From positions 1-30,057 of IMG/VR virus record IMGVR_UViG_3300030329_000587: DNA of 30,057 bases; one strand, written 5' to 3'. The notes below the pieces were generated by a model, which was not told the DNA's origin, did no database searches, and saw nothing but the letters and a program-made list of their open reading frames with translations. Origin of the DNA: a virus. Positions 1,115-30,057 of this stretch are shown piece after piece (within the stretch, counting starts at the first letter, position 1; each line of letters starts with the position of its first letter). The position numbers and the translations under genes were made by a program.

Positions 1115-1117
1115 AGT

Positions 1118-1390: not shown

Positions 1391-1391
1391 T

Positions 1392-2448: not shown

Positions 2449-2450
2449 TT

Positions 2451-2855: not shown

Positions 2856-2856
2856 A

Positions 2857-16818: not shown

Positions 16819-17802
16819 TTAAGTTCTTACAGTTTGATTTGCGCCATAATTGATCTGATAGCACGACTCAGGACGGAGCCAGTTCGTTCCAAGAGCGAAC
16901 TTAGCAACCATCAAATGTCCTTGTCTGCGGATGTCATACTCAGATTCTACCTTCAAGCCCATTAACTGAACTGTTCCGATAGCTGAACGATGAAACCCGA
17001 CTGCAAGACACTTCCTGAAATCACCAATATAGCTATTATTGGTTTGAATCATGTTGCTGTCATGGCTTGTCACATTGGACAGAGGTGGGAGATGATTGGA
17101 CTTCAGGACATTGATTCCTGCAATCCTCAGAACTTCACCTTCTGCAAATGAACCAGACCCACCCCAATCACGATTGATGGCTTTAGTGCCTTCAACGATC
17201 TTGTAGTATTGGATCGGATCAAACACGACAAAGCGGTCACTTTCAGGAACATCATTCTGATCCATCATTCGCGCCATTGTCATGATATGCCCGGTGAGCT
17301 TGTCGCCGTCAATATCATCGGCATCATTCGCAAGTGCGATCTGATTAGCCGCAGAGGGTTTCCCGCCTGTGATATTAGCCGTCTGACCACCACCATTATG
17401 AACCTGAATCAGACAATTCTTATCGAACTTATTCGCAAGTGCCTGACCAAGTTGTTTCGCGTATTCACCGCGAACATCGTAATGATTAATCGCCTCATCC
17501 AGATTGGAAATGAAGACGTGTGAGATGAGAAGGCCATCGATATGCACAATTCTTTCATTGTGCTTGATCGCCGCCCCAAGAATTTCAGCACCGGGAGTAT
17601 GGTACTCGGCCGCAGACGTTCCCATTACTGGAAATTGTGCCGATTTCCCGGAAGAAATTGTGCGGTTCATGTGAAGAGGCTTCATGATGTTTAGTTCATC
17701 AAACGAAGTCAGAACTTCTCCACTAAATACCTTTAAAAATAAATCTAGTGCGCCACCTGACGCATTAACTTGACCTAATCGAGAGACTGTTGCCGCTGTC
17801 AT
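16819..17802 (-). CDS. Major capsid protein (T7 gp10A-like)
   Basis: A 327-aa protein of the T7 gp10A family (345 aa), an HK97-fold capsid subunit. Diagnostic stretches are LDLFLKVFSGEVLTSFDE near residue 20, SGKSAQFPVMGTSAAEYHTPG around 52-72 (T7: SGKSAQFPVLGRTQAAYLAPG), HIDGLLISHVFISNLDEAINHYDVR, and the C-terminal YDIRRQGHLMVAKFALGTNWLRPESC. A good Shine-Dalgarno sequence (AAAGGAT) precedes the ATG. A 131-bp non-coding region lies upstream and a strong terminator lies downstream, which suggests a separately boosted transcript. No frameshifted minor form can be recognised. Confidence 0.97.
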   Translation of the reverse strand: MTAATVSRLGQVNASGGALDLFLKVFSGEVLTSFDELNIMKPLHMNRTISSGKSAQFPVMGTSAAEYHTPGAEILGAAIKHNERIVHIDGLLISHVFISNLDEAINHYDVRGEYAKQLGQALANKFDKNCLIQVHNGGGQTANITGGKPSAANQIALANDADDIDGDKLTGHIMTMARMMDQNDVPESDRFVVFDPIQYYKIVEGTKAINRDWGGSGSFAEGEVLRIAGINVLKSNHLPPLSNVTSHDSNMIQTNNSYIGDFRKCLAVGFHRSAIGTVQLMGLKVESEYDIRRQGHLMVAKFALGTNWLRPESCYQINYGANQTVRT

Positions 17803-17933: not shown

Positions 17934-18722
17934 TTACGAATCTAACTCAGAAAGAGCCATCCGTTGTTCAATATTTTGGCGGTATGCAGGATCATTCCGA
18001 TACCGTGGATCGCGCATGGCTTCTGAAACCTGTGCCCATGAATTAAATCCATTGGCCGCTGTGTTCGGTCTGCCTTGCACTAAGTTTGGGGCAAAACCTG
18101 TCTCCTGCTTCCACAAAGCAACCATGGATCGAATCGCAAACTTATTCTTCTCTGCGTCTCCGCTGAGGGAATTATTGTAAGCATCAATCTCACCTTGGGA
18201 GAGGTTATCACCAGCCCATTTAATCATTTGTTGGAACTGTTCTTCACCCCCGGCCTCTGTGTAAGCATTTTGACGGTTTTGTTCGGCCAGCGATTGCTGA
18301 CCTTTGATGTAGCTGTCAACAAACTCCCGCGAGAGTCCTGAGTCAGCTAATTCTTGGTAGCTATTCTGTGACAGCTCACCACTATCTGTAAATTCCTTTT
18401 CAAATTTTGCATAGTCAAGCCCTTGTTCCGAGAGCATCCCCTTTGCCTGTTCTTCAGTAGTGTTTTCAACGGGGGTTTCTGGGGGGTCTGACTGTGGCTC
18501 TTGATTCTGTGAGCCCATCTTTGACTCAAGTTCTGAATAGGCCTTCGCCATATCTTCAGCACTATTAAACTTCTCAGGCAACCATTCAGGACGTTGTGGC
18601 TCTGGTGCTTCAAGCGTTGGTTCTTCTCCTTTGGTTTCTTCCGCTTCAGCCTTTGCCACCATTTCGTCAATGTATTCCTGCGATTGGGGCTCAGGGGTTT
18701 CCGTTGTTTGTACTTCTGGCAT
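17934..18722 (-). CDS. Capsid assembly scaffolding protein (T7 gp9-like)
   Basis: A 262-aa acidic protein between portal and capsid, where T7 has gp9 (307 aa). The first 75 residues are rich in Glu, Pro, Thr and Gln, followed by RPEWLPEKFNSAEDMAKAYSELESKMG, a common start motif of podovirus scaffolds. A helical middle (ISQ/NQ-rich) and a C-terminal region with SWAQVSEAMRDPRYRNDPAYRQNIEQRMALSE, the likely capsid-contact helix, complete it. It should guide procapsid assembly and leave before maturation. The Shine-Dalgarno sequence is weak. Confidence 0.92.
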   Translation of the reverse strand: MPEVQTTETPEPQSQEYIDEMVAKAEAEETKGEEPTLEAPEPQRPEWLPEKFNSAEDMAKAYSELESKMGSQNQEPQSDPPETPVENTTEEQAKGMLSEQGLDYAKFEKEFTDSGELSQNSYQELADSGLSREFVDSYIKGQQSLAEQNRQNAYTEAGGEEQFQQMIKWAGDNLSQGEIDAYNNSLSGDAEKNKFAIRSMVALWKQETGFAPNLVQGRPNTAANGFNSWAQVSEAMRDPRYRNDPAYRQNIEQRMALSELDS

Positions 18723-18748: not shown

Positions 18749-20380
18749 TTACGATGGTAGTTGTTCTGGGGCTGGCATCTGTGGCTGGGCTGGCATCTGT
18801 GGCTGGGCTGGCATCTGTTCACCACCTCCACCCATCATGTCCGGGCCGAATTGCTTAATAATCTCTGGGCTAGCAGACTTCAGAAGCTCATGGAATCGCT
18901 CCTGCTTCATCCTCTGTTCTGCTTGCTGGGCTTCTTGTTGCTTCTGTTCATCCGTCTTAATAAGTCCGTTCATCTCAATACCCCGCGCCGCGCCGACACG
19001 TTTAATGATCTCACCCATGTTCATTTCAGCCTGCACGCCTTGGGCTTGACCAAGCATCTGTATGTCATTCAGGAACTCAGTCAATCGGTTCAAGTCATCA
19101 GAGCGACCAAGCCCTTCAAGGCCTGTGACGATCTGCGGTCTGACAGATTCTTCAGGCATTGCAGGTAGCTCACCCTTGGTTTCTAATTTCTCAAGAATGA
19201 TCTTGACCATGGGGAGCTGAAACGATGTGGATAAGAGGCTGAACACGCCGCCCAAACTAGACTCAAGCTCCTGCGCCATGAATCGAATCTCTTCCGCAGT
19301 CACACGCTCTGCATCTCTGCGGATCGCGCTGTTAAGAAGGAACGAATAGCTCAGGCGTTCACTTAATTTCCCGATAGTTTGTTCTGCAATCCTGAAATCA
19401 TTGAACTTCTCCATTTGCAGGACGGTGACATCATTTGATGATCCCGCAATGATCCCGCCGTTAGGTGTTTCAGCAAGATCCATTTCATTAGTGAAGCCAT
19501 TAGGATTTACCAGAAACAGAACCTTTGCGGCCGCGGCAGAGCCTTCAACGATGGCTTTGGTAAGAGTCTCTAAGCTTTTGAGGTCACCATAGTAGGCTTC
19601 ACAATGGCCGCGTCCATAATCCTCCCCGTCTACTGATTCAAATTTTAAGGGTAACCATGGCAAGGTCTTCCCATCAGGATACAGTCCTTGTGATCCGGGT
19701 ATAACCTTGTCCTCAACCTCTTGATGAACATGCCATGCACCTTTGTTATCTTTCATGACACATGTAAATAGGTCGAACTCCTTATCTGGGTCATGCTCAC
19801 CACTTTGGTTACTGTCCACTAACCCTTTCGCCCGCTCTGGAAGCATCATCGGGGAAACGGTTTCACGGATGATCAGCTCTGTAAGGTTCCCTTCAAAATC
19901 TCGGTAGCAAACATATCGGTCTAAGGGGTAGACTCGCATCTTTCCATAGATCGGATCGGGCCAGCAGACAAGAGCGTTGCCGGAAACGATCAGGTGCTTA
20001 ATCGCCTCAAAGGTTTGGATGCGTATAGCAGAAGTCTCAATCTCACGCATAACTGCACGTTCAGCTCGGCTCATTGCTTCGTCAATCTGACCCTTGGATG
20101 CTTCCCGTGCTAGCTCGGCCTTCACGGTGTCATCCATGATGAGCTTAAAGAACGGGGCATTTGGCGGCATTAAGGTTAGCAATAGTTTCGCCGCAAGATG
20201 GTTTACTCCGCGGGCTCCAAGGCTCTGATACGGAGTCTTGAAGTTGGTGGCAGAAGTAGCTCCTTCTTGTGGGTAAAGGGTCGGGATGGTGAGTTCCGAG
20301 CATTTCCTCGCCCGTTCAAGAAACGGGTTTCGCGCTGTGGCACCCTTTTCGTAACGTGCCCTGAGACTTTTCTTTTCCAT
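18749..20380 (-). CDS. Portal (head-tail connector) protein, T7 gp8-like
   Basis: A 543-aa protein, close to T7 gp8 (536 aa). The N-terminal ARYEKGATARNPFLERARKCSELTIPTLYP and GARGVNHLAAKLLLTLMPPNAPFFKL match the family core (T7: R...A..R.......P.l.P....., G...v.nLa.kLm.aLFP). The middle has GRGHCEAYYGDLKSLETLTKAIVEGSAAAAKVLFLVNPNG and the later RDAERVTAEEIRFMAQELESSLGGVFSLLS, also typical. The last 20 residues are a QMPAQP repeat. It forms the dodecameric ring through which DNA is packaged. The start overlaps the upstream stop (TAATG) behind an AGGA sequence. Confidence 0.96.
   Translation of the reverse strand: MEKKSLRARYEKGATARNPFLERARKCSELTIPTLYPQEGATSATNFKTPYQSLGARGVNHLAAKLLLTLMPPNAPFFKLIMDDTVKAELAREASKGQIDEAMSRAERAVMREIETSAIRIQTFEAIKHLIVSGNALVCWPDPIYGKMRVYPLDRYVCYRDFEGNLTELIIRETVSPMMLPERAKGLVDSNQSGEHDPDKEFDLFTCVMKDNKGAWHVHQEVEDKVIPGSQGLYPDGKTLPWLPLKFESVDGEDYGRGHCEAYYGDLKSLETLTKAIVEGSAAAAKVLFLVNPNGFTNEMDLAETPNGGIIAGSSNDVTVLQMEKFNDFRIAEQTIGKLSERLSYSFLLNSAIRRDAERVTAEEIRFMAQELESSLGGVFSLLSTSFQLPMVKIILEKLETKGELPAMPEESVRPQIVTGLEGLGRSDDLNRLTEFLNDIQMLGQAQGVQAEMNMGEIIKRVGAARGIEMNGLIKTDEQKQQEAQQAEQRMKQERFHELLKSASPEIIKQFGPDMMGGGGEQMPAQPQMPAQPQMPAPEQLPS
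18771..18818 (-). repeat. 18-bp tandem repeat at the 3' end of the portal gene
   Basis: The unit GCTGGCATCTGTGGCTGG occurs 2.67 times without a mismatch (18771-18788, 18789-18806, 18807-18818). It is in frame and encodes QMPAQP repeats at the portal C-terminus. Copy number could change by slippage without breaking the frame. Confidence 0.9.
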
Positions 20381-20724
20381 TAAGTCCTAGCGTATCCGAT
20401 ATTAAGTCCTGATTTGGTTGGGCCTGTCGGGATGGATAGACCTTTCGGAGTCAGCGTGTCACGCCGCATCCGTGTGGAGCGTTTAGTCTGTGCCGCAGTC
20501 TTGAGAGAAGGACCGCCTTTCTCATCTGCCATTTCGTTAGCCATAGCAAGGTCTTCTTCTTGCTCTTGTGCAATCATTTGTTCTTTTTGCTCCGCTAACG
20601 CTTTTTCTTGAGCCGCTTTTTGTTCTTTAGCCGCTTTTTTTTGATCTTTGCGAGTCTCTTCCGCTGTGTAAGCACCATAAACTGCCGCCGCCGCCGCAAT
20701 AGCGGTGTAAGTTGTAACACCCAT
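20380..20724 (-). CDS. Small protein before the portal gene, possible virion component
   Basis: A 114-aa protein. I use the ATG at 20722-20724 because AAGGAATAAC precedes it; a longer frame to 20850 would overprint the upstream gene. Residues 1-20 are hydrophobic (TTYTAIAAAAAVYGAY), followed by a long Lys/Glu/Gln/Ala coiled coil (about 20-65) and a basic, Thr/Arg-rich tail ending in GLSIPTGPTKSGLNIGYART. Position matches T7 gp6.7/gp7.3, small virion-associated proteins, and a similar hydrophobic start with a coiled coil and basic tail is frequent at this locus. The function is an inference from position. Confidence 0.6.
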   Translation of the reverse strand: MGVTTYTAIAAAAAVYGAYTAEETRKDQKKAAKEQKAAQEKALAEQKEQMIAQEQEEDLAMANEMADEKGGPSLKTAAQTKRSTRMRRDTLTPKGLSIPTGPTKSGLNIGYART

Positions 20725-20725
20725 G

Positions 20726-20908
20726 TTATTCCTTTTGCATTTGTTTAAGCTTCCAAACCACCGAAGCTTGTCCCGCTTTAAACCAGATTTCACGGTCATC
20801 TTCATCAATCTGTGGGCACTTGTTCGGGTAAAGCCGATTAAGTTCCTCAACTAAATGATCTTGTATCCCCCAATCTAAGCCGGGAAGAAGCTTCTTGGTT
20901 TTAAACAT
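20726..20908 (-). CDS. Small hypothetical protein (DREIWFKAGQ motif)
   Basis: A 60-aa protein with a central PNKCPQIDEDDREIWFKAGQASVV stretch. Short proteins with this D..D.EIWFKAGQ..VV pattern recur near the structural genes of T7-like podoviruses and have no known role. It overlaps the end of the amidase gene by eight bases and lies one base before the next gene, so it is part of the same chain. The Shine-Dalgarno sequence is weak (AAAAAG). No membrane segment or catalytic motif is visible. Confidence 0.65.
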   Translation of the reverse strand: MFKTKKLLPGLDWGIQDHLVEELNRLYPNKCPQIDEDDREIWFKAGQASVVWKLKQMQKE

Positions 20909-21428
20909 TCTTTTTGGTGTCTGTTAATAGTGGGAACATGCTAGCACGGTTTTCTAAGTTGAAAGTCTTGAGGCTGTAACTGGTTTCAGCCCACCAATCT
21001 GCGACGTTAAAGACAGGGCACAAGGATGAGGTGTCGGTGCGGTTATGCCCGCAGACATCTGCTTCAGGATAAACTCGGACTAGGTAGCAACAAAGATGCG
21101 TCAAAGAGGTCATCTGCACCGCAGTATAATCAGGGGATTTGGCTTCGCCTTTGACGTTCCCGCCACCGATCAAACAGATGCCGATGCTGTCGTGATCCCG
21201 ACCTTTGCAATGGTTTCCTATCGCATAAAGAGGACGGCCTAGTTCTATGATTCCGTTTCTGCGAATCACATAATGGTAGCCAACATCCACGCATCCCTGT
21301 CGCATGTGAAGGGAGCGCATAAACTCCACGCCGTCATCATCATTAGGTTTTGTGAGTGAGCTGTGAATAACAATCAGGTTTGTATCTTCACGCTCTTTCC
21401 AATCCGGGCCGTAAGAGAATTTAGTCAC
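20901..21428 (-). CDS. N-acetylmuramoyl-L-alanine amidase (T7 lysozyme gp3.5-like)
   Basis: A 175-aa Amidase_2 enzyme that cleaves the amide bond between N-acetylmuramic acid and L-alanine. I choose the GTG at 21426-21428, which has AAGGAGG upstream; the frame continues to 21569 but overprints the nuclease gene. Zinc ligands by comparison with T7 lysozyme are H22 (VIHSS), H128 (CGHN) and C137 (CPVF), with Y51 (VGYHY) as the catalytic Tyr. The T7 Lys128 position is a Ser here (S135). T7 lysozyme also inhibits its RNA polymerase; whether this one does is unknown. Residues 150-175 extend past the T7 protein. A TGCTAGCA palindrome lies in that tail (20939-20946). Confidence 0.92.
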   Translation of the reverse strand: MTKFSYGPDWKEREDTNLIVIHSSLTKPNDDDGVEFMRSLHMRQGCVDVGYHYVIRRNGIIELGRPLYAIGNHCKGRDHDSIGICLIGGGNVKGEAKSPDYTAVQMTSLTHLCCYLVRVYPEADVCGHNRTDTSSLCPVFNVADWWAETSYSLKTFNLENRASMFPLLTDTKKNV

Positions 21429-21750
21429 TAATCTGCACCTCCTTGATGTCCCATGCCTTCCCAGCTCTGCGGACCAGAAAGAACTTAAACCAAGGAAATG
21501 CTTGAGCGGCCACCTTGAGCTTGACGTTGGCATCATCACGCATGAAGCCCTTGCACTCATGGATCTCAAAGCAGTCTTTTTTTATCACCAGAAAATCCGG
21601 CTTGTAAAAAGTCTTGAACGCCAGCCGTAGTCCCATGGGCTCGTATCTGTAATCAAGAATCTCTCCCGCCATCTTAAGAAGGTGAAGATAGTTTCCGTAA
21701 TCCCTTTCAAGTTTATTCTGCTTGTTCGGGTCATAGAATTGAGGCTTCAT
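21421..21750 (-). CDS. Phage endonuclease, PD-(D/E)XK type (DUF1064-like)
   Basis: A 109-aa protein. The ATG at 21748-21750 has AAGGA upstream and overlaps the upstream TGA as ATGA; the frame also opens earlier at a TTG without such support. The fold markers are an early Glu (NKLERDYGNYL), then YKPDFLVI and FEIHECKGF, giving the D...E-C-K core of a PD-(D/E)XK nuclease, and a later K.AAQAFPWFKFFLV. This matches the DUF1064 group of phage proteins, thought to act as structure-specific nucleases. It sits in the position of the T7 endonuclease I gene beside the amidase and could resolve branched DNA before packaging; this is inferred. Confidence 0.75.
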   Translation of the reverse strand: MKPQFYDPNKQNKLERDYGNYLHLLKMAGEILDYRYEPMGLRLAFKTFYKPDFLVIKKDCFEIHECKGFMRDDANVKLKVAAQAFPWFKFFLVRRAGKAWDIKEVQISD

Positions 21751-22205
21751 TCGATCCTTGTAAACTTGTTCATAGGAATGATCACGCAAGGCTCTTTATC
21801 CTGCGGATCGTTGCGGTCAAATCTACCAATGATTCCAATTTTGACATTCTCATTTCGGTTTGAGAAAACGCATCGATACAGTTCCGTTGAGTCTTCTATG
21901 TCGCTGTTCAGCTCAATGTATAGCCAGAAAGAAAGCCCTGTGTGGTCGCAGAATCTAATACCTGATTCGTATTTTTGGTATGACAGCCGGAACCCGCCCC
22001 ATTCTTCTAGCTGAGAATAGGAAACATGCCGCCGCTTGTATTCTCCGCAAGCGACAGCGTGACCACGATCATCGAAAAACAGGTAATCCCATGGGTAGTA
22101 TTTGGGCGTCATGAAAGCATCAATCCCCCCAAATTTTTCGGAGATTCTACGACGCACGGACTCTTGATTCTGCCAATGGCTGTGCGTCTCGTAGGTGGGG
22201 CGCAT
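21747..22205 (-). CDS. Putative nuclease-like protein (WDY...GEYKRR)
   Basis: A 152-aa protein. Near residues 35-60 is a pattern YYPWDYLFFDDRGHAVACGEYKRR, which fits a PD-(D/E)XK core (D, then E-x-K) with downstream helix YSQLEEWGGFRLS. The C-terminal half is beta-rich (RFCDHTGLSFWLYIELN, YRCVFSNRNENVKIGIIGRFD). I do not recognise the family and the nuclease call depends only on the spacing of D, E and K. It is flanked by a related-type nuclease and a small protein, each overlapping by one to four bases, so they are co-translated. Confidence 0.55.
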   Translation of the reverse strand: MRPTYETHSHWQNQESVRRRISEKFGGIDAFMTPKYYPWDYLFFDDRGHAVACGEYKRRHVSYSQLEEWGGFRLSYQKYESGIRFCDHTGLSFWLYIELNSDIEDSTELYRCVFSNRNENVKIGIIGRFDRNDPQDKEPCVIIPMNKFTRIE

Positions 22206-22426
22206 TAGAAGGGCTCGTCTTCTTTGCGGATCTCTGGCTGTGGTACGTCAGGCTTTTTTTCTTTCGGAGCCAAGAAAAGATTGAAGTCTGGATCGTTGTC
22301 TTTTTCTTTAAAACTGTTACTGAAAATTAGGAGCTTCGCGGTGCCAAGGCTCCCGCTGTAATACACTTCGCCTTTGGTTGTGGTGTTTTCCCACAAACCC
22401 GTCAGTTTTACTTTTTTATCTTCCAT
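22205..22426 (-). CDS. Small protein with SSB-like acidic C-terminal tip
   Basis: A 73-aa protein. The body KLTGLWENTTTKGEVYYSGSLGTAKLLIFSNSF with N.PDF.LFLAP resembles a widespread group of small phage proteins (DUF736-like beta barrels). The Lys/Pro-rich linker ends in RKEDEPF, which recalls the acidic-aromatic tip of single-stranded DNA-binding proteins (DDDIPF in E. coli SSB, terminal Phe in T7 gp2.5). Position directly after the RNA polymerase gene also matches the region where T7 keeps gp2.5. The role as an SSB is an inference. The gap to the polymerase stop is two bases and no Shine-Dalgarno sequence is evident. Confidence 0.6.
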   Translation of the reverse strand: MEDKKVKLTGLWENTTTKGEVYYSGSLGTAKLLIFSNSFKEKDNDPDFNLFLAPKEKKPDVPQPEIRKEDEPF

Positions 22427-22428
22427 GA

Positions 22429-24870
22429 TTAGCTAAATAGATACTTGGATTCTAAGACTGCGGATAGATTCAGGTCACCTCTGGTTGGTGCGGCGGGGAG
22501 AGCGGGGCCGTACCTCTCAAGCTGGCGCTTGAAGTTATCCAAGAGGTCTGGGGTGTGGAGTTCTACAAATTGTTTGCGGAGCTGGTAGCTCAGGCGTGGG
22601 GCGTTGGAAGCATGGACGGCAAAGCAATCATGGATCGTCATCTGATCCTTGATGCCCTGATCTGCACATGCTAGCACCGTCTCGGTGAGGTGGCTGGCGT
22701 CTAGGCTGTGGATAAAGTTAGGACTAGAGCCTTGGACCGCACGCTGTTTGTGGATCTTGTCCGTCTCATTCGGGAATCGCATTGCAATGAAAGTTCCATC
22801 AAGCACCGTCGTTGTGCGGCGGGCCGATACCTTCAGGTAGTTCTGAAGTACCCTGAACCCTGATGGGGTTTGCCATGTCAGAGGTAGCCCTGCGTCAGCG
22901 TAAGTGCGGGCGGCGTCTCGTATCCAATCCATAGTTTGATTCGCACACTTCATCACTTTATCAATCGCCTTCATGATCTTGCCTGCAAGGTAGCCGGATT
23001 CCTTCCAGCATGTGGGCCTCAATCCCTTGTTAGCCCACGGTATCGCCTTGCCTGTGGCATGTCCTTCTTGGATCTGATCGCTGACGTAGAGCCTCATTGC
23101 GGAGAGCGTCCCGCCGTATGGGATAATCATCACGGAGCGCTTCACGGTCTTCCGGGTAATCCCCCAATCCATCCATCCCCGTGCGATGCTGTTCCCCTGA
23201 TGTGCATCATCCTGAACCATGGCTTTGCACTCATTCGCCACCGCCTGATAAATATCCTGTGGCTGATCTGACGGGGTTAGGTTGGTCAGCCCTGCGCCGA
23301 TAGGGTCAAGCATCAGGGCGCTGAAATGCTGAAGCCCGTTGTTACTGCCATCCATCTGCACCGGGAGATGTGAATAAAAACTGTTTCCTTCCTTGATGTA
23401 GTTCGACCACTCAAAACAGAAGGCTAGAAACTGAAAGGGTTTGTCGGCTTCCTGCCAGTAGTCGTAATCAAGCGGAGCTTCCGCGCATCTGATAATGTGA
23501 TCCTCAATCTCTTTAACCCAGAGGTGTCTTTCGTCTAGTGAAATCTTGTCGTTCCCATACATGGCCGCGCCGTGTGATGCCAGCATGATCTCGGCAGGCT
23601 TTGATGTGATGGGTATCCCCTTCCAGAACTTTAGTAAGGATCTTGAGAAGTCTGGGCCTTGTGGACTGAGCGGGCTGTAAGCCGGATATTTTCTACCGCG
23701 GAAGTCAGAGTAATAAACATAATAAAAAGCACGGTCACGGTAGCTTCTCGCAGTCTGCATACATTGAATAAGGTGCAGTCTGAGACTCCGATCCGTTGCA
23801 TTCTGTTCGCGGATCTTCCGGGCAAGCAATGAATACTCTTTCAGGACTTCGCGCTGTGCTTCAGTCATTTCTTCTTTAGGTATTCTCTGAGTGAAAGGAC
23901 TCTCTGGGACTTTAGCTTCTGATCCGGGTAGCCCTGCAATCCTCAAGTCGCGCTCCATGCACTCTTCAATCACTTCAGCAAGGTCTTGGTTTAAAGCCCA
24001 CTTGGTTTTTTGAAGGGTGTTCAGGCAATGGTATTCCTTCGGCTGGTGGATCGCATCAGCATCCTTGAGGTACTTGGTGGCGTTCAGCTTAATCGCAGGG
24101 AAGCGGAGTGCTTCAGTAAAATATCCACCGCGGTAAACGCCTTCCCAATTCCGGGGCTTGATTAAAGTCGGCGGGGTGAGAGACGAGCGCAAAGATTCTT
24201 CCTCAATTAGCTCTTTCATCCATGAGATTGCGGAGTCTGTGAGGCGTGCGTATTTTCTCATCTGTTTGCCCACCCCTAAAGCGGGAAACTCAACAAGCCC
24301 TGTCCTAAGACGCATGCAATGAAGTAGAAAGACGCCTAGCTCCTGTTTAGTTTTGAGATTCCAAGCCGTCCATTCAATACCCCCAGCCTTTGCCGCTTTT
24401 AAAAGCTTTGTGCGTCTGTGCCCGCGGCCTTTGGCCTGTCGGTTTGTGATTTCTTTGGCGGCATAAAGCAGATTCTTTTCAGCCTTCTTGAATGCTAGCA
24501 TCCTCGCGTGATCTTCAACGTGACTCGCAACCTTGCGGCAGAGCTGATCGTAATAACATTCGGTTGCAAAAGATCCGTAGCTCAACAAATCAAGGCACGT
24601 CTTGATGGTAAGATATGCCGCGGTCTGTGGATCTACACCTTGCTCTTCTAGGAACCTTGAGTACCTTGCCGGGAGTCCGACCATGGCTTTACGCCTGAGC
24701 CGGATCTCTGCGGCGATAACACGGACAGCCTCACCCATAATCTTGCGGCTGTTCTGGTTCGTTGATCCGATTTTATTCTGAGAATTTTTGAGAGTTTTCT
24801 TGTGTAATTTCTCGGTGGACTGACGCCACGCGGCGTTTTCTAGGGCTCTTTGTTTGCGTAGCGTTGCCAT
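22429..24870 (-). CDS. DNA-dependent RNA polymerase, single-subunit T7 type
   Basis: An 813-aa enzyme (T7: 883 aa) that transcribes the phage genes from its own promoters. Conserved blocks are SDFRGRKYPAYSPLSPQG (388-405), the palm motif VQMDGSNNGLQHFSA with catalytic D507, the fingers motif TRKTVKRSVMIIPYGG with R573, K577 and Y585, and PNFIHSLDASHL plus MTIHDCF with catalytic D748. The protein ends in LFS, where T7 has FAFA. The specificity-loop region (about 683-702, RRTTTVLDGTFIAMRF) differs from T7, so the promoter sequence should differ. GAGGGG precedes the ATG and lies inside an inverted repeat. Two TGCTAGCA palindromes fall in the gene. Confidence 0.98.
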   Translation of the reverse strand: MATLRKQRALENAAWRQSTEKLHKKTLKNSQNKIGSTNQNSRKIMGEAVRVIAAEIRLRRKAMVGLPARYSRFLEEQGVDPQTAAYLTIKTCLDLLSYGSFATECYYDQLCRKVASHVEDHARMLAFKKAEKNLLYAAKEITNRQAKGRGHRRTKLLKAAKAGGIEWTAWNLKTKQELGVFLLHCMRLRTGLVEFPALGVGKQMRKYARLTDSAISWMKELIEEESLRSSLTPPTLIKPRNWEGVYRGGYFTEALRFPAIKLNATKYLKDADAIHQPKEYHCLNTLQKTKWALNQDLAEVIEECMERDLRIAGLPGSEAKVPESPFTQRIPKEEMTEAQREVLKEYSLLARKIREQNATDRSLRLHLIQCMQTARSYRDRAFYYVYYSDFRGRKYPAYSPLSPQGPDFSRSLLKFWKGIPITSKPAEIMLASHGAAMYGNDKISLDERHLWVKEIEDHIIRCAEAPLDYDYWQEADKPFQFLAFCFEWSNYIKEGNSFYSHLPVQMDGSNNGLQHFSALMLDPIGAGLTNLTPSDQPQDIYQAVANECKAMVQDDAHQGNSIARGWMDWGITRKTVKRSVMIIPYGGTLSAMRLYVSDQIQEGHATGKAIPWANKGLRPTCWKESGYLAGKIMKAIDKVMKCANQTMDWIRDAARTYADAGLPLTWQTPSGFRVLQNYLKVSARRTTTVLDGTFIAMRFPNETDKIHKQRAVQGSSPNFIHSLDASHLTETVLACADQGIKDQMTIHDCFAVHASNAPRLSYQLRKQFVELHTPDLLDNFKRQLERYGPALPAAPTRGDLNLSAVLESKYLFS

Positions 24871-25006
24871 ATAATACCCCTCAAGCCACCTTCGCTATTG
24901 AATCGCTTATGAAGACCAGCTTATCGGTTAGGTCAGCTTGTGGATTCCTGCGGGAACGAGCATGCAGGAAGAGGAGAGCGTGCCTTTGGACTTGAGGGAG
25001 TATCAT
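24871..25006 (-). repeat. Imperfect inverted repeat exactly bounding the spacer before the RNA polymerase gene
   Basis: The arms ATAATACCCCTCAAG (24871-24885) and CTTGAGGGAGTATCAT (24991-25006) pair over 15 positions with one G-T wobble and one unpaired base. They touch the polymerase ATG on one side and the HTH gene stop on the other. The polymerase ribosome-binding sequence GAGGGG is inside the arm. An inner hairpin TTCCTGC / GCAGGAA (about 24945-24970) is nested within. In mRNA this could fold into a branched leader that hides the ribosome-binding site; this is inferred from pairing only. Confidence 0.65.
24881..25006 (-). CDS. Possible 41-aa protein before the RNA polymerase gene
   Basis: An ATG directly after the TAA of the HTH gene opens a 41-codon frame that ends in a TGA inside the polymerase ribosome-binding arm. 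The peptide begins MILPQVQRHALLFLHARSRR and continues NPQADLTDKLVFISDSIAKVA, a plausible helical and basic small protein. There is no Shine-Dalgarno sequence, but a stop-start junction (TAAATG) would allow coupled translation, and its stop lies 9 bases before the polymerase ATG. If translated, ribosomes would open the leader structure over the polymerase start. It may also be chance. Confidence 0.45.
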   Translation of the reverse strand: MILPQVQRHALLFLHARSRRNPQADLTDKLVFISDSIAKVA

Positions 25007-25186
25007 TTATTTTTTAACTTCTGAATTTTTTAACAAATGTATTATAGAACTTACGGGAATTATCATTTTGCGTCCCCCGGGTTGATAGGCTTTTAGTTTT
25101 CCTTCATTGATCCATCGTCTAATAGTTCTGACATGGACATTAAGGATGTCTGCCGTATCGGTTAAGCTGTAAAAAGTTTTTTTCAT
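25007..25186 (-). CDS. Small HTH DNA-binding protein (excisionase / MerR type)
   Basis: A 59-aa protein beginning MKKTFYSLTDTADILNVH. The pattern YSLTDTADILNVHVRTIRRWINEGKLKAYQPGG.RMIIP fits the excisionase-family winged HTH (helix-turn-helix about residues 7-28, wing with K-L-K-A-Y and an RKMIIP strand). Such proteins act as recombination directionality factors or as transcription regulators. With no integrase in view, regulation is as likely as excision. The start overlaps the upstream stop as ATGA at 25183-25186, and its stop abuts the inverted repeat before the polymerase gene, so it may control that gene. Confidence 0.8.
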   Translation of the reverse strand: MKKTFYSLTDTADILNVHVRTIRRWINEGKLKAYQPGGRKMIIPVSSIIHLLKNSEVKK

Positions 25187-25359
25187 TTTACGCCCGCGTG
25201 TTTCTCATAGTATCGTTTTTTGGCTTCGTCAATCATCTCCTGAGTGATTTCAGTCTTGGATCGCTTGCCTCGTTTAGTGTTCTTCGCGTACTTTGTCTTC
25301 CTAAAATTGCGCTGTTCTTCAGGAATAAATTCAGTAAATATCTCATTAAGTTTCGTCAT
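25183..25359 (-). CDS. Small basic protein of unknown function
   Basis: A 58-aa protein beginning MTKLNEIFTEFIPEEQRNF, with a Lys/Arg-rich middle (RKTKYAKNTKRGKRSKTEI) and a helical end EMIDEAKKRYYEKH. I choose the ATG at 25357-25359 because GGAAG lies five bases upstream and it starts just after the upstream stop; the frame is open to 25491 but that part overprints the upstream gene. The charge suggests nucleic-acid binding. I do not recognise the family. Confidence 0.6.
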   Translation of the reverse strand: MTKLNEIFTEFIPEEQRNFRKTKYAKNTKRGKRSKTEITQEMIDEAKKRYYEKHAGVK

Positions 25360-25360
25360 A

Positions 25361-25669
25361 CTATCTTCCATGTGTATCCGATATTTCATTCCTGAATCTA
25401 GTCCCAATTCCATCCCATTCATGGAAAAAAGGATTCGCTTCTTTGAACATCGTGCATTGCTCTGCAAAATATGGTTTTTCATCAGCATCAACAGGACTCA
25501 TTGGAATTAATGTGTCTAAAATGACCCGATCCTCTTCTTTATTGTGGTCGAGAGTAAGGTGCAACTCCATCACCTTACATAGTTTATCCGGGTCATCGTT
25601 TACGCATTTATCGCAATTCCAAGAAGCCCAATCCATGTGTTCGGTCCCGTTTGGAAAATAAGCCATCAT
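25361..25669 (-). CDS. Hypothetical protein with paired cysteines, downstream of recT
   Basis: A protein of about 102 aa beginning MMAYFPNGTEHMDW. Near residues 19-31 it has CDKCVNDDPDKLC, a Cys-x-x-Cys...Cys cluster that could bind a metal, with a further Cys around residue 72. The C-terminal part is Phe/Trp-rich and acidic. Two adjacent ATG codons are possible starts; the second is better spaced from GGAGG and overlaps the recT stop. Its place in the recombination operon suggests a DNA-metabolism accessory role, but the function is unknown. Confidence 0.6.
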   Translation of the reverse strand: MMAYFPNGTEHMDWASWNCDKCVNDDPDKLCKVMELHLTLDHNKEEDRVILDTLIPMSPVDADEKPYFAEQCTMFKEANPFFHEWDGIGTRFRNEISDTHGR

Positions 25670-26565
25670 GCCTCCACGGTTACATCTTTAGCCACCTGAT
25701 CTGAACCATCACCAATGATCAGAGGAATCTGTTTATTTGATTTTTCGGATTTTTCATTGGGGCTTTTTTCGGATTTTTCCAATTTTTCAGGGCCCAAATT
25801 TTTTCCCGAAAACTTTTCGTTTAATTCATCGGCGCTGTTATCCTCTTCAGCCTCGGTGCCATGGACGTATTCCCATTCTTTGCTGTCAAGATTTAAAGCG
25901 AATCCTGATCCCCCGGCTTCGGCTTTATTAACTGCGGTTTCCAGCTTCTCATTTCCTGTGGGAAGGTTCTTGAGTAAGCGCCTTAAAACCGTCTTCCGTG
26001 CCATTTCCTCATAGTCTGTTTTCCATGGCCCGGAGCTACCGCTCTTGGATCGCGCCTTAATCTTGTCGATTTTGGCTCGGCTCATATACTCAAAATAAAC
26101 CTCTTCTTCGCCTTTAATCTTGGCGCAGGCGTAACAGCCAATCAGCTTGCCGGGATTCTCATCATCAATATTCGGGACGTGTTCAATGCGGGGATTATCT
26201 GACCCTTCAATGATCTTGAAATGATGATCGGTGTCGTAAACAGGCTTGCTCCATATCTTTGTGAAATGGCCGCTCTGCATCGCCAGTTTCATCAACCCTT
26301 TATATCCGGGTTGGAGCTGGCACTTATTCCCGTAAGGGACTAGGTAGGCAAGGCCCTCAATGCTGTTTGGGACAAGACCCATACTGCATGCTTCCATAAC
26401 GCTCTGAAGGATGGAGCCCTTGGAGCATTTCATAATTGCAGGGTTTTTCTGTACTTCCGTTAAAACGATCCGCTGAACCTTCTGCGGGCTGATGTGAGCC
26501 GGGAGAAGGGGCGCCATCTCAGGCTGTAATAAAACCAAATCTTTTTTGAGTTCTGCTTTTTCCAT
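25666..26565 (-). CDS. recT: RecT-family single-strand annealing recombinase
   Basis: A 299-aa protein (E. coli RecT: 269 aa) that binds single-stranded DNA made by the partner exonuclease and anneals it to homologous DNA. Family hallmarks are KCSKGSILQSVMEACSMGLVPNSIEGLAYLVPYG.KCQLQPGYKGLMKLA (about 46-93) and the basic, Gly/Ser-rich SGSSGPWKTDYEEMARKTVLRRLLKNLP (about 175-203). The C-terminal 60 residues are a low-complexity, charged EKSEKSPNEKSEKSNK tail, with a repeated TTTTTCGGATTTTTC in the plus-strand DNA (25741-25780). AAGGAG precedes the ATG. It pairs with the RecE-like gene two places upstream. Confidence 0.95.
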   Translation of the reverse strand: MEKAELKKDLVLLQPEMAPLLPAHISPQKVQRIVLTEVQKNPAIMKCSKGSILQSVMEACSMGLVPNSIEGLAYLVPYGNKCQLQPGYKGLMKLAMQSGHFTKIWSKPVYDTDHHFKIIEGSDNPRIEHVPNIDDENPGKLIGCYACAKIKGEEEVYFEYMSRAKIDKIKARSKSGSSGPWKTDYEEMARKTVLRRLLKNLPTGNEKLETAVNKAEAGGSGFALNLDSKEWEYVHGTEAEEDNSADELNEKFSGKNLGPEKLEKSEKSPNEKSEKSNKQIPLIIGDGSDQVAKDVTVEA

Positions 26566-26574
26566 TTTATCTCC

Positions 26575-27327
26575 TTAGAATGCTATTTTCCCTGAACGGA
26601 AATTCATGTTGTAAACCCGTGCTAGCTGTTCGATATAGTTCCCCGTGTTATGGCTGGGATATATCTCGCCACCTCTTTCCTTGAGCTTCTGAAGCATCCT
26701 TTTTTTAGAATAATTCTCATGCTCCATCATTTGAGCAATTGCCATTTTAATCTTGTCCTGCTTGGGCGGGATTAAAGCTTGGCATTGAGCTATATGCTCG
26801 CATTGCTCTTCAATCAGATTCACATTTTTAAAATGCAAATGATCTTGGGTAATCATTTCGATGATGGTTGATATTGCGAGATTCCGCTCAAACTCAATCC
26901 GGCATATCAAAACAGGATTAAACCCAAATTTATTCATCAGGTACTCAAGGATTTGAGCGCCTTTACTGTTATTATTAACTTGGGCTTTCACAAAATCTGA
27001 TACTGACCATCTATTCGTTGCCGCGCTCATTTCTGCATAGTCCTCAACCTTCGCTTCAGGATCTACCAAGACATAGCCTTCTATCCCTAGTGAACACGCG
27101 ACTTCTGCACGGTGATGACCGTCGCAGATGACAAAATCCTCGTTGATGACAATCGGAAAAGCTTTTTTAAAACCAAACTTTTTCATTGATTCCGTAATCC
27201 TACGGATACGACCTCTTTGTGTTGCTTGAGCCACACCAGCAAGTCGGTTGGCGTTGTTTGGCAATAAAGATTTCAGTTCTTCCGCTGATACTTTTAGCAA
27301 AGTACCTTTCTTGTATTTTCTACTCAT
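26575..27327 (-). CDS. ParB / Srx-fold DNA-binding protein
   Basis: A 250-aa protein. I choose the ATG at 27325-27327, which follows AAGGAGATATAAA and the RecE stop by one base. Residues 40-75 form a ParB N-terminal-like region: an arginine-rich helix (GRIRRITESMKKFGFKKAFPIVINEDFVICDGHHRAEVA), with the signature G-H-H-R (70-73). The middle is helical with a possible HTH (WSVSDFVKAQ), and the C-terminal third is basic. This fold includes ParB CTPases, sulfiredoxins and ParB-type nucleases, so partition, nuclease and regulator roles are all open. No ParA ATPase is seen. A TGCTAGCT site lies in its 3' end (26620-26627). Confidence 0.8.
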   Translation of the reverse strand: MSRKYKKGTLLKVSAEELKSLLPNNANRLAGVAQATQRGRIRRITESMKKFGFKKAFPIVINEDFVICDGHHRAEVACSLGIEGYVLVDPEAKVEDYAEMSAATNRWSVSDFVKAQVNNNSKGAQILEYLMNKFGFNPVLICRIEFERNLAISTIIEMITQDHLHFKNVNLIEEQCEHIAQCQALIPPKQDKIKMAIAQMMEHENYSKKRMLQKLKERGGEIYPSHNTGNYIEQLARVYNMNFRSGKIAF

Positions 27328-27328
27328 T

Positions 27329-28171
27329 TTATATCTCCTTAAATGCCCACCGTGGCAGGCTAATTTCCTCAATAATGGGGCTGTATCCGCTGAATTGATT
27401 TTCAATCGGGGAGTTTTTGTATTTTGCGTATTTTCTGAGGTCTGCCTGCGAGTGCATAAAACCCTCAGCCAGACTCCCCTCGTCTAAGGTGTAACACGCG
27501 ACACCGTGCGGCGGCTGACTCTCCACGCACACAAAAACAAACTTTGCTCTGACACCTGAAACCACTTCCCAACCTCGCAGATACCATGCGGCTTGGACGT
27601 GGTAACGATAGTTCGCAATGCTCTTGGCAAAATTATCGGTGCTAGCATCCGCGGTGGATTTGAGATCAACAAGAACCTCTCGGTCTTCGGTGATATAATC
27701 CGGGCGGCATTTACAAGGGACTGAGGCGGTGAATCCATCAGCGATCACTTTTTCATCCCAGAAAAGTGAGGCCTCAGTCATGCCATCCCCAGAAAAGATG
27801 CTTCCTGCCATTGGATGCTTTTTGACTGCCTCATCCATGGCGTCAATCCTTTCAAGCTGGTTCTGGGTCAGCATCGTCGCGCCTCTATACTTTGCGGTGT
27901 AGGCCGCCATCTCTTCCTTGCCAGCCTTGGTTCTTTTGTTGATCCAATGCGGCTCTTCAAAATACCTATGGCTGAAGAAATCGGGCTCTAAGACAGCAGT
28001 GTGGAACGCGGTGCCCTCAACCATAGCCTTGGTTGGTTCGGAAGAAGGTGCCTCAAAATGAAGGATGCTTCTGTGGATTCTGTCGAGATCACTCTTAGAA
28101 ATGGCAGGATAATGCCGATATTCCGAATTCGGCATTTGCTGAATGATCTCCCATTTCATTTTTTCTAGCAT
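27329..28171 (-). CDS. recE: RecE-like exonuclease (PD-(D/E)XK, exonuclease VIII type)
   Basis: A 280-aa protein equal to the nuclease domain of RecE (in E. coli the C-terminal part of an 866-aa protein). It degrades double-stranded DNA 5' to 3' and leaves 3' single strands for RecT. Motifs are YRHYPAISKSDL, VEGTAFHTAVLEPD with H57, the catalytic CRPDYI (D158) and VDLKS (D169, K171), and NYRYHVQAAWY (188-199). I choose the ATG at 28169-28171, which overlaps the upstream TAG (ATGCTAG) behind GGGAG; the frame also has an earlier TTG. A TGCTAGCA palindrome lies in the D-A-S stretch after the catalytic Lys (27640-27647). Confidence 0.93.
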   Translation of the reverse strand: MLEKMKWEIIQQMPNSEYRHYPAISKSDLDRIHRSILHFEAPSSEPTKAMVEGTAFHTAVLEPDFFSHRYFEEPHWINKRTKAGKEEMAAYTAKYRGATMLTQNQLERIDAMDEAVKKHPMAGSIFSGDGMTEASLFWDEKVIADGFTASVPCKCRPDYITEDREVLVDLKSTADASTDNFAKSIANYRYHVQAAWYLRGWEVVSGVRAKFVFVCVESQPPHGVACYTLDEGSLAEGFMHSQADLRKYAKYKNSPIENQFSGYSPIIEEISLPRWAFKEI

Positions 28172-28272
28172 TTTCTCCCCCAAATTTTTTGCTTAAACCT
28201 TTGCCATAAGGTCCGCTTCTTTCGGAGCTTCTTTTGCGCTTGGTCTTGGGCCAAGCAATCGATTAATCGCAT
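28165..28272 (-). CDS. Small highly basic protein
   Basis: A 35-aa peptide beginning MRLIDCLAQDQAQKKLRKKR and ending WQRFKQKIWGRKC. About 40 percent of its residues are Lys or Arg, with an amphipathic pattern in the second half. The ATG (28270-28272) has GAGG at a good distance. A longer in-frame start exists at 28410, but its Shine-Dalgarno sequence abuts the ATG and its first 46 codons look like non-coding DNA. It may bind nucleic acid or membranes. The stop overlaps the recE start. Confidence 0.5.
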   Translation of the reverse strand: MRLIDCLAQDQAQKKLRKKRTLWQRFKQKIWGRKC

Positions 28273-28396
28273 AGTGCTACCTCGTTTATTGTGATGCCGG
28301 GAGACTGAGCCCCCGGCTGATTTTGAAGAGGGTAAACCGTCAATAATCGGGTTTTTACGGGACCAATCAACCTCTTCATGAGGGGCGCAATCCGCA
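28273..28396 (-). promoter_or_regulatory. Non-coding spacer with a GC hairpin, possible host-type promoter
   Basis: This 124-bp gap holds the hairpin GCCGGG-GGCTCAGTCT-CCCGGC on the minus strand (28296-28317) with no U-tract, so it is not a clear terminator. Upstream of it TTGATT and GATTAT are spaced by 17 bases, which would suit a weak sigma-70 promoter for the recE-recT part of the operon; each box matches consensus at four of six bases. The promoter call is weak. Confidence 0.3.
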
Positions 28397-28570
28397 TTAA
28401 CGCCCGTCATCCCTTAAAGTCTCTAAAATATCGGATTTCAACGCTTCACGATCAGCTTTAACCCGCCGGATCGTCTCGGTTTCTGACAGCTCTGGTGCTA
28501 GCAAAACAGAAAGCTCCTTGACGGCTTTTGTGTTTTTATCAAGTGCTTCAATAAGCTCATTTATCTGCAT
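28397..28570 (-). CDS. Small helical protein, unknown function
   Basis: A 57-aa protein beginning MQINELIEALDKNTKAVKEL and ending in ETLRDDGR. It is predicted to be two helices (LIEALDKNTKAVKELSVLL and ETIRRVKADREALKSDILETL), possibly a coiled coil. The ATG at 28568-28570 has GGGG upstream and overlaps the end of the helicase-loader candidate by 14 bases. A TGCTAGCA palindrome (28496-28503) encodes the L-L-A-P turn between the helices. The family is not recognised. Confidence 0.6.
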   Translation of the reverse strand: MQINELIEALDKNTKAVKELSVLLAPELSETETIRRVKADREALKSDILETLRDDGR

Positions 28571-29033
28571 GGCCGCCCCTTGGATGATCCAATAGAAATA
28601 CCCAATCCCTTCCATAAGCGTCTTGTGTCATCCGAAATCGCTGACCATTGGAATCTGTACCTTCTACTGTTTGTTTGATCGCGCCTCTCGGCACCTCGGC
28701 TCCATCAGCCCAGAGCGCTAAAATCTTTTTCATGTTTTTCTGGGCTATCGCTGAAGGCTCGTTCTTTTTCTTAGGTTCCTCTCCCGGTAGTGCAGGCACT
28801 CGCTTGGAGCCTGTGTAACGCTCAACGGCCAGCTCCTTAAAATGAGCAATGGTCGGGAATTTTTTTAGCCTATCAATGCTTTTTTTAAGACCTTGCTGAA
28901 GCTGTTCCGGGCTCAGGGTTGCCAGCGCTCCCTGCCACAACCCTTCCAGCTCGTCCGTCAGTTCCTCTTTGAAATTGATTGCCAGAGCTTCCAAGCAGAC
29001 GCTTATAGCTTGATCTCTTGTCATTTCCGTCAT
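28557..29033 (-). CDS. Putative replicative helicase loader (G39P / lambda P-like)
   Basis: A 158-aa protein. The N-terminal 80 residues fit the pattern of the phage G39P/helicase-loader group: a helix with LTDELEGLWQGALATLSPEQLQQGLKKSIDRLKKFPTIAHFKELAV, where the FPTIAHFK motif is typical. The C-terminal half is basic and charged, with GRDWVFLLDHPRGGH at the end. Position directly downstream of a winged-helix replication initiator is the lambda O-P order. It would load the host DnaB-type helicase at the phage origin. The start overlaps the upstream gene by 149 bases in another frame, with GAGG upstream. Confidence 0.65.
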   Translation of the reverse strand: MTEMTRDQAISVCLEALAINFKEELTDELEGLWQGALATLSPEQLQQGLKKSIDRLKKFPTIAHFKELAVERYTGSKRVPALPGEEPKKKNEPSAIAQKNMKKILALWADGAEVPRGAIKQTVEGTDSNGQRFRMTQDAYGRDWVFLLDHPRGGHADK

Positions 29034-29802
29034 TATCTACCTCGTTTTTTCGTTCACGCCGCGCACGGTTTGCTTCAATCACTTCCGCGCTGGATTTCAT
29101 CCATGTTGGGCGATTATCGCTCTTATTTGCCTCTAAAGGCCTAAAATAGCTAGTTTGAAAGCCCACCCAACTACGTTCAATTGCAGTTTTGAGAGCGCCG
29201 ATAACGTCCATGTTCTCCTGATGGGCTTTCGATATTGTGTCGAGCGTTTGCCCGATATATTTTTCATCCTTCCATTTTTTACTGGCAGGATAGACATCGC
29301 CTTTAAGCTTCGCCCATTCATGCCAGAGGTCTAAAAACCCGGGTAATTTTTCTAAATTTTCAGGGATTGCGTGACTAAGTATGGAACTATATGAAATATA
29401 GTTCTTTCTTTCTTTCTTTAGTTGTGCACCTATCTTTGTCCCGCTCGTTGTCTCGCCCGTTGCAACGGATAGCTGGTAATCGTCGTATTTGCAGACCTTC
29501 ACGACGGTCGTGAGTTGTCCCATATCGCGTATCGATAACTGTCCCGTTTTTTTAAGGGTATTTAAGAAGCGATTTACCTTCCCTCTTGACCACCCCCAAC
29601 GCTTCCCCATCGTCAGCCTTGACCACGCCAATTCACCGCGGGAAACCTCAATGGTATTCCCGTTGATATAGGCCACGTTGTCCTCGTAATTCGCATTTAA
29701 AAGAAGATCGATCCACGCCTGCCCCTTTGAGAAACTTTCGGCTTTCCATAGGTCGTGATCGCATATTTTTCTATGCAGACGGATATATCCGGCGTTACTC
29801 AC
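28885..29802 (-). CDS. Phage replication initiator (winged-helix, DnaD / O-like)
   Basis: A 305-aa protein. The N-terminal 110 residues, with GYIRLHRKICDHDLWKAESFSKGQAWIDLLLNANY, then RGELAWSRLTMGKRWGWSRGKVNRFLNTLKK.G, fit the winged-helix domain of phage replication proteins of the O/DnaD type. The middle (about 145-225) is helical and contains LPGFLDLWHEWAKLKGD. The last 50 residues are low-complexity and overprinted by the helicase-loader gene. It should bind the phage origin, often within its own gene, and recruit the loader. The start is GTG, overlapping the upstream stop (GTGAGTAA), with GGAAG upstream. Confidence 0.85.
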   Translation of the reverse strand: MSNAGYIRLHRKICDHDLWKAESFSKGQAWIDLLLNANYEDNVAYINGNTIEVSRGELAWSRLTMGKRWGWSRGKVNRFLNTLKKTGQLSIRDMGQLTTVVKVCKYDDYQLSVATGETTSGTKIGAQLKKERKNYISYSSILSHAIPENLEKLPGFLDLWHEWAKLKGDVYPASKKWKDEKYIGQTLDTISKAHQENMDVIGALKTAIERSWVGFQTSYFRPLEANKSDNRPTWMKSSAEVIEANRARRERKNEVDNDGNDKRSSYKRLLGSSGNQFQRGTDGRAGRVVAGSAGNPEPGTASARS

Positions 29803-29998
29803 TCTTCAGCTCTTCCAATTTTTTTAATACAGAAATATTCCTGTCGGTTGCCAGACCAATAGCGGTAGCCTGAACCTTCTGAATAAGGTCATCATCAAGC
29901 GCACGGCTCACGGTGGCTAGGGATACTCCCATTTCGTCAGCGACGTTCTGAAGCGGAATCCCGCTGTCGCGCAATAATTGTTTAACTCCTTCCTTCAT
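29795..29998 (-). CDS. Small HTH regulator (Cro / repressor-like)
   Basis: A 67-aa protein. The segment IPLQNVADEMGVSLATVSRALDDD (about 14-37) is a helix-turn-helix of the XRE/LacI type: an A-D-x-x-G-V turn followed by the recognition helix S-L-A-T-V-S-R-A-L. The C-terminal 25 residues are helical and may dimerise. It heads the leftward operon before the replication genes, where lambdoid phages place Cro or CII. A candidate operator is just upstream. AAGG precedes the ATG at a good distance. It may be one of the DNA-binding partners for the dispersed palindromes, but this is only a possibility. Confidence 0.8.
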   Translation of the reverse strand: MKEGVKQLLRDSGIPLQNVADEMGVSLATVSRALDDDLIQKVQATAIGLATDRNISVLKKLEELKSE

Positions 29999-30057
29999 TT
30001 ATAGCCTTGTAAGATTGTTTGCAATAATGTATGCTGTATAAAGCCTAAACTAGCTTA
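29999..30057 (-). promoter_or_regulatory. Upstream region of the HTH gene with a short palindrome
   Basis: This 59-bp leader at the window edge contains ATTGTTTGCAAT (30014-30025), arms ATTG/CAAT with a 4-base centre, at about 16 bases from the HTH start. It could be an operator for the small HTH protein. The promoter would lie here or beyond the edge; I see no convincing -35/-10 pair. Confidence 0.3.

Follow-up and report, generated by a model that had tools for sequence, protein, structure and literature searches.

T7-like phages that can integrate are already known. The Pseudomonas phage LUZ100 and the Roseobacter phage CRP-227, both temperate-type Autographiviridae, carry an integrase adjoining or near the gene for their T7-type RNA polymerase (RNAP), and the Desulfovibrio phage ProddE combines a T7-like virion with an integrase, an excisionase and a CI-like repressor just before RNAP. 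These phages, as well as vB_PaeM-G11, all encode a T7-type DNA polymerase and primase-helicase. Beyond these two enzymes, LUZ100 and CRP-227 possess a single-stranded DNA-binding protein (SSB), endonuclease I, gp6 exonuclease and a MarR regulator; ProddE, with a gp6-type exonuclease as well, has the T7 replisome in full. Here we analyze IMG/VR record IMGVR_UViG_3300030329_000587 (the window), a complete record consisting of a 30,057-base linear contig from an uncultured virus of bacteria, in which T7-type RNAP and virion genes are joined to a replication and recombination module of another kind. We estimate a probability of about 0.85 that the window comes from a temperate T7-type podovirus, being part of a genome whose phage-encoded replisome has been replaced. 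Temperate T7-like phages are not new; of a T7-RNAP phage with such a replication module we found no report in the open-access literature searched.

Two further kinds of phage are needed for the comparison. Temperate phages of the lambda and epsilon15 type share with the window the order of divergent cI and cro, initiator and recombination genes, and the window RecT is 35% identical to that of epsilon15. Their late genes are transcribed by the host RNAP with an antiterminator, and their virions are unrelated to that of T7. The Bacillus phage SPP1 shares a G38P-type initiator, an exonuclease, an annealing protein, a resolvase-like nuclease and an AT-rich stretch at the same place of the initiator gene. 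In SPP1, the primase, clamp loader and polymerase of the host are brought in by G39P together with the phage helicase G40P, and the exonuclease G34.1P, the annealing protein G35P and the resolvase G44P shift replication towards concatemers (PMC6316719; PMC3485210).

A T7-like genome without a phage replisome

All principal genes of the window lie on the minus strand (Table 1). Transcription proceeds from a helix-turn-helix (HTH) gene through the initiator, an open reading frame (ORF) of 158 amino acids, two short ORFs, a RecE-type exonuclease, a ParB-like protein, RecT and short ORFs including an excisionase-like gene to RNAP. There follow a resolvase-like nuclease, an amidase, a possible spanin, portal, scaffold, capsid and tail tubular proteins A and B, and finally three large genes for internal virion proteins, a fibre gene and several clustered small genes of the fibre type. 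The RNAP keeps all the T7 catalytic positions (Asp 537, Lys 631, Tyr 639 and Asp 812). It lies after the replication and recombination genes and directly before the lysis and virion genes, whereas in T7 it precedes the replication genes. Phages of the phiKMV type within the Autographiviridae (loci L083, L100 and L108 in our survey) share this layout, with replication genes upstream and RNAP directly before lysis and virion genes, as seen in L083; L083 differs in that it encodes a DNA polymerase and a DnaB-type helicase itself. A first-pass annotation, made from the sequence alone, had named the T7-type RNAP, the T7-order virion genes, the Cro-like HTH, the winged-helix initiator, RecE and RecT, all of which are in the window. 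It had also noted that a replisome is missing between the early and virion genes. The absence stands; that interval is not the sole place where a replisome could lie, since RNAP here follows the replication genes.

Where is the remainder of the genome? An IMG/VR scan with the RNAP identified a sibling contig of 42,704 bases (G001, the same contig as L007-L009) whose RNAP is 98% identical. The two share about 90% DNA identity over the stretch that runs from the tail tubular genes through the HTH gene, and G001 extends past both sides. Beyond its cro-like gene, G001 encodes a CI-like HTH_3 protein on the opposite strand and then a tyrosine integrase (PF00589; phrog_1, 3e-29), followed by an excisionase-like gene, small ORFs, an AAA/DUF7192 pair, the terminase large subunit (TerL) and further small genes. 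The terminase is of the T7 type (phrog_38, 2.2e-107; T7 RNase H-like domain, 3e-39). The window gene at 72-356 matches G001 41074-41352, and the small fibre genes of the window match both G001 ends; the window therefore bridges these ends, and together the two contigs cover almost all of a permuted genome of about 43 kb.

Searches for DNA polymerase A and the DnaB-type helicase (Pfam PF00476 and PF03796) gave no match in any of 14 records, comprising the window, G001 and 12 further lineage records, while LUZ100 and CRP-227 were positive for both in the same search. The largest unassigned non-virion ORF of G001 encodes 176 amino acids, too small for either enzyme. Could these phages nevertheless encode their own replisome outside all the fragments seen? 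IMG/VR classes G001 as linear, both of its ends fall in the fibre cluster, and a small gap is possible. However, the window spans the fibre cluster between those ends, and a polymerase and a helicase need more than 3 kb; with the empty searches, this makes a replisome elsewhere extremely unlikely. Of the genes that the first-pass annotation had suggested seeking in the missing part, G001 supplies the integrase and the CI-like repressor and neither polymerase nor helicase; the lack of these two enzymes supports its proposal that the phage would rely on host replication.

One large ORF, before the portal gene of contig L113, was considered as a polymerase and rejected, as it encodes an acidic, proline-rich repeat protein. 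Such proteins, with long Asp runs, occur in some lineage members, encoded after the spanin-like gene and ahead of the portal gene (L113 9217-11766, 849 amino acids; L139 5130-7223, 697 amino acids), and are not found in the window.

The window and G001 share with the Autographiviridae a T7-type portal, capsid, tail tubular proteins and terminase in T7 order on one coding strand; in G001 only the CI-like gene and one neighbour lie on the opposite strand. Identity to LUZ100 and CRP-227 is 32-34% for RNAP and about 47-58% for portal and terminase, and RecE, RecT and a G38P initiator are not among the annotations of those two phages. Because the phage-encoded T7-type replisome is absent, we file the lineage as a relative branching inside the RNAP tree and not as a standard member of the family.

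An SPP1-style initiator and recombination module

What stands in place of the replisome? The initiator aligns with SPP1 G38P along its full length; an hhalign comparison of the lineage alignment with G38P gave 99.6% (E 1.7e-24, 243 columns), and the L113 orthologue matches phrog_428 (replication initiation, 1.1e-26); the predicted structure of the initiator is a poor model. SPP1 differs in encoding its own DnaB-type helicase, G40P, and SSB and in being a lytic siphovirus, whereas the lineage has no DnaB-type helicase. The window exonuclease is of the RecE type, unlike that of SPP1. The module is closer to the recombination-dependent system of SPP1 minus its helicase than to that of lambda. The first-pass annotation had called it lambda-type; the order of cI and cro is indeed lambda-like, and SPP1-type fits the remainder better, since the initiator is a full-length G38P relative.

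The 158-amino-acid ORF sits where SPP1 has G39P. It belongs to no family, matching neither G39P nor Pfam, and its AlphaFold model is poor, with a predicted local distance difference test (pLDDT) score of 49.6; an identification as G39P found no support, there being no detectable homology. The earlier label of loader candidate consequently finds no backing in homology. Between the window and G001, codon-aligned ratios of nonsynonymous to synonymous substitution (dN/dS) are 0.04 for RNAP, 0.09 for RecT, 0.10 for RecE, 0.17 for the initiator and 0.12 for the 158-amino-acid ORF; these low values show purifying selection on the genes.

An origin inside the initiator gene can be no more than a good guess. 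The AT maximum falls within codons 134-159 in all five lineage genes compared and at codons 134-153 in SPP1 gene 38, in each case in the same linker. Codon shuffles never reached the peak in two of the five lineage genes; for the window, 120 of 1000 (12%) did. With a weak peak and repeats at chance level, placement of the window origin stays a guess.

A lineage nested among replisome-bearing phages

Is the join real? The window is a single metagenome contig that ends at both sides and has no cultured relative, circumstances under which the end of a lambda-like prophage might have been misassembled onto a T7-like genome. G001 and G002, however, contain the same join, with a DNA identity of about 90%. 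IMG/VR scans with RNAP, capsid and initiator yielded further lineage contigs at 57-65% RNAP identity, and RecT is joined to the lineage RNAP in L113, L114, L115, L116, L131 and L139 (the same record as L127), at 46-65% protein identity. RecE, the family of the 158-amino-acid ORF, the initiator, cro and the divergent CI-like gene are likewise joined in these six, as far as each contig reaches. An integrase followed by the divergent CI-like gene, cro and the initiator occurs in L147, L148, L149, L151, L153 and L154; these six, with G001, L113, L116 and L139, show cI and cro in divergent arrangement. Overall, the order (integrase), cI divergent from cro, initiator, ORF, RecE, RecT, RNAP, resolvase, amidase, portal is found in about 15 IMG/VR contigs, again as far as each reaches. 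Independent contigs with the same join refute an assembly chimera, to which we assign virtually no chance.

We surveyed 98 other T7-type RNAP loci from bacterial genomes and IMG/VR, scoring each within the stretch covered. At least one T7 replication gene is present in 91, and none of the 98 carries RecT, RecE or a window-type initiator. The seven loci without a T7 replication gene are four short or ambiguous pieces, two phiKMV-type fragments (L100 and L108) and L029. L083, L100 and L108 were considered as further replisome-less cases and rejected, L083 being of the phiKMV type with its own polymerase upstream. L029 (9857-17745) lies on a contig of a Hyphomicrobiales metagenome-assembled genome and has a divergent T7-type RNAP and a T7-type portal, with bacterial-looking genes upstream and no T7 replication gene between RNAP and portal.

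In a maximum-likelihood RNAP tree of 97 rows, the 10 lineage rows form one clade (Shimodaira-Hasegawa-like approximate likelihood ratio test, SH-aLRT, 100) nested among phages with a T7 replisome. Its sister pair, L055 and L060, encodes a T7-type helicase and SSB, and L060 a polymerase and an integrase as well. Because this is a quick tree with long branches, the clade is more certain than its sister relation. The economical reading would be that a T7-like ancestor, by then temperate, had its replisome replaced once. The first-pass annotation had proposed a chimaeric lineage and an RNAP phylogeny with the gene content of relatives as a check; the contigs sharing the arrangement and the single RNAP clade bear it out. 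Its proposal could have failed through a replisome just outside the window or an artefactual join, and we found neither.

Evidence for temperate life

Both half-tRNA kinds found in the lineage begin or end at the anticodon stem-loop, where crossover by tyrosine integrases usually takes place. They lie directly upstream of the integrase start in five contigs: the 3' half of tRNA-Lys(TTT) with its CCA end in G001, L151 and L154 (with an Rfam tRNA match in G001), and the 5' half of tRNA-Arg(TCT) in L149 and L153. A tRNA likewise lies beside the LUZ100 integrase (PMC10134795). The relatives thus hold a temperate gene set of integrase, repressor and half-tRNA sites, the last predicted from sequence to function as attachment (att) sites. 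The first-pass suggestion that the phage may be temperate gains from these half-tRNAs, from the integrase and the CI-like repressor divergent from cro, and from the excisionase-like gene. We strongly infer both lysogeny and use of the host replisome from the gene content.

Two choices of integrase site, the tRNA-Arg(TCT) 5' half and the tRNA-Lys(TTT) 3' half, occur in the one lineage. The gap between cI and cro in G001 holds a TTGACA box and then a perfect palindrome with 6-bp arms, GCCTAA-N6-TTAGGC; an automatic promoter scan called no promoter there. A host was sought through the half-tRNA-Lys, which, allowing at most two mismatches, occurred in 0 of 369 and 0 of 385 sampled genomes of two proteobacterial classes.

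Might these phages instead persist as phage-plasmids, extrachromosomal replicons that use the ParB-like protein and do not integrate? The ParB-like gene is present in the window and G001. It is absent from the other lineage contigs, no ParA was found, and an integrase with half-tRNA sites stands alongside, all of which renders this highly unlikely. A lineage that recently turned lytic, retaining host-dependent replication with integrase and repressor as remnants, would account for the failure to find an integrated copy in genomes, and the window itself is cut before the integrase. Yet the integrase and CI-like genes have open reading frames and are conserved even between divergent contigs, and half-tRNAs of two tRNA genes suggest that site choice is still changing; we regard a recent loss of lysogeny as very unlikely.

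Proposed course of infection

How would a temperate T7-like phage with a replaced replisome proceed? From the observed genes, their order and conservation, the absences and the half-tRNAs, we infer every activity in the following model. The CI-like repressor and Cro, encoded divergently, would control a host-transcribed early operon of cro, initiator, second ORF, recombination genes and RNAP. The G38P-type initiator would bind an origin, probably in its own gene, and start theta replication with host enzymes; in keeping with its homology and with the missing phage enzymes, it and the overlapping ORF may recruit the host DnaB helicase and replisome. The RecE, RecT and resolvase proteins would then drive recombination-dependent replication to concatemers, as in SPP1. 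The RNAP, the last early gene and with its active site intact, would transcribe the genes for lysis, the virion and packaging, a task that falls to a late activator, Q, in lambda. A T7-type terminase would package the concatemer, and the integrase would recombine at the tRNA genes whose halves adjoin it in relatives. We think it likely that these contigs represent a stable, divergent T7-like lineage with a host-dependent SPP1-style initiator and recombination module, in which RNAP serves as a late-gene switch downstream of CI/Cro control.

Several points weigh against this model. An RNAP scan of 84,980 GTDB species genomes detected only distant T7-replisome prophages and unresolved fragments and no lineage member, and neither a closed circular nor an integrated copy of the lineage was found. 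The CI-like protein has 111 amino acids and no matched cleavage domain, so induction would differ from that of lambda. A 20-base repeat scan of the coding strand found coding repeats only and no repeated phage promoter, and late transcription by this RNAP is argued from knowledge of its family. The 158-amino-acid ORF is only a putative helicase loader, and the iteron-like repeats in the window initiator gene do not exceed shuffles, whereas those of the SPP1 control do. Finally, L029 is possibly a second, independent case of replisome loss, which would mean loss elsewhere too.

In T7, transcription enzyme, replisome and virion are tightly coupled: RNAP primes the origin, gp3.5 binds RNAP, and gp2.5 and gp5 act together. 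If the model is true, a T7-type RNAP and virion can work without the T7 DNA polymerase, helicase, SSB and gp6, and a replisome swapped out while the rest is kept would mean that RNAP, replisome and virion modules are separable in nature. The lineage would document a route from self-sufficient to host-dependent phage, one linked to temperateness because the nearest replisome-bearing RNAP relative, L060, also encodes an integrase. Its RNAP is probably a late-stage switch in a temperate phage. The lineage is also a warning that contigs with a T7 RNA polymerase should not be called lytic on that ground.

Other features of the window and its relatives

Table 1. Features of the 30,057-base window, in order of transcription, with the family matches and values obtained
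Feature	Coordinates	Strand	Match or basis
Start of cI-cro control region, cut by contig end	29999..30057	-	aligns with G001 up to 27352
Cro-like HTH, first early-operon gene	29795..29998	-	HTH; weak LacI/XRE-type matches
Replication initiator, SPP1 G38P type, winged-helix N-terminal domain	28885..29802	-	phrog_2514 2.3e-22
Candidate replication origin, AT-rich peak at initiator codons 134-153, just after iteron-like repeats	29344..29403	-	
Second replication ORF, 158 amino acids, overlaps initiator	28557..29033	-	place conserved in lineage members; helicase-loader candidate by position only
RecE/exonuclease VIII-type nuclease	27329..28183	-	phrog_412 3.4e-73; PF12684 4.9e-30
ParB-like protein	26575..27405	-	phrog_12305 1e-11
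RecT single-strand annealing protein	25666..26565	-	PF03837 3.3e-43; phrog_148 3.1e-69
Excisionase-like HTH protein, 59 amino acids	25007..25186	-	HTH_17 2e-13; phrog_66 excisionase/regulator 1.1e-7
T7-type single-subunit RNA polymerase	22429..24870	-	phrog_414 1e-207; PF00940 1e-104
Resolvase-like nuclease	21421..21789	-	phrog_190 Holliday junction resolvase 6.3e-13; weak DUF1064; orthologues 1.1e-9, 2.4e-14
Amidase endolysin	20901..21569	-	phrog_822 2e-42
Possible Rz-like spanin	20380..20850	-	phrog_1152 0.0035
Portal (head-tail adaptor), T7 gp8 type	18749..20380	-	phrog_449 3.4e-173; ~50% identity to Autographiviridae portals
Scaffold	17934..18722	-	phrog_1052 4.3e-59
Major capsid protein	16819..17802	-	phrog_267 1.6e-79
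Tail tubular protein A	16138..16767	-	phrog_446 2.2e-50
Tail tubular protein B	13442..16138	-	phrog_457 1.8e-182
Three internal virion proteins, T7 gp14-gp15-gp16 position	5012..13442	-	position and size; weak phrog_805, phrog_6651 matches
Tail fibre	3245..5008	-	phrog_38058 1.3e-13; phrog_2710 2.3e-8

The leader before the capsid gene (17803-17933) contains a small hairpin element, TGACC-stem-GANAATC, kept in 13 contigs with diverged flanks and showing compensatory changes in two of four pairs. Having one copy per genome, it was rejected as a repeated phage promoter; it could be a late promoter or an element of mRNA processing or stability. The window capsid protein is 89-91% identical to those of the L122-L127 contigs despite portals at just 73-79%, and relative to G001 the capsid is 77% and the portal 98% identical, a mismatch that points to recombination within the virion module. 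The small fibre-type genes at 72-3243 contain repeated modules, are paralogous to genes at both G001 ends and are likely a site of rapid exchange. In G001 (L008 13400-15370), an AAA_5 ATPase (phrog_249, 'porphyrin biosynthesis', CobS-like) adjoins the DUF7192 protein (phrog_1909), and near the terminase (L008 18125-18976) an ORF carries an ART-PolyVal ADP-ribosyltransferase domain (1e-14).

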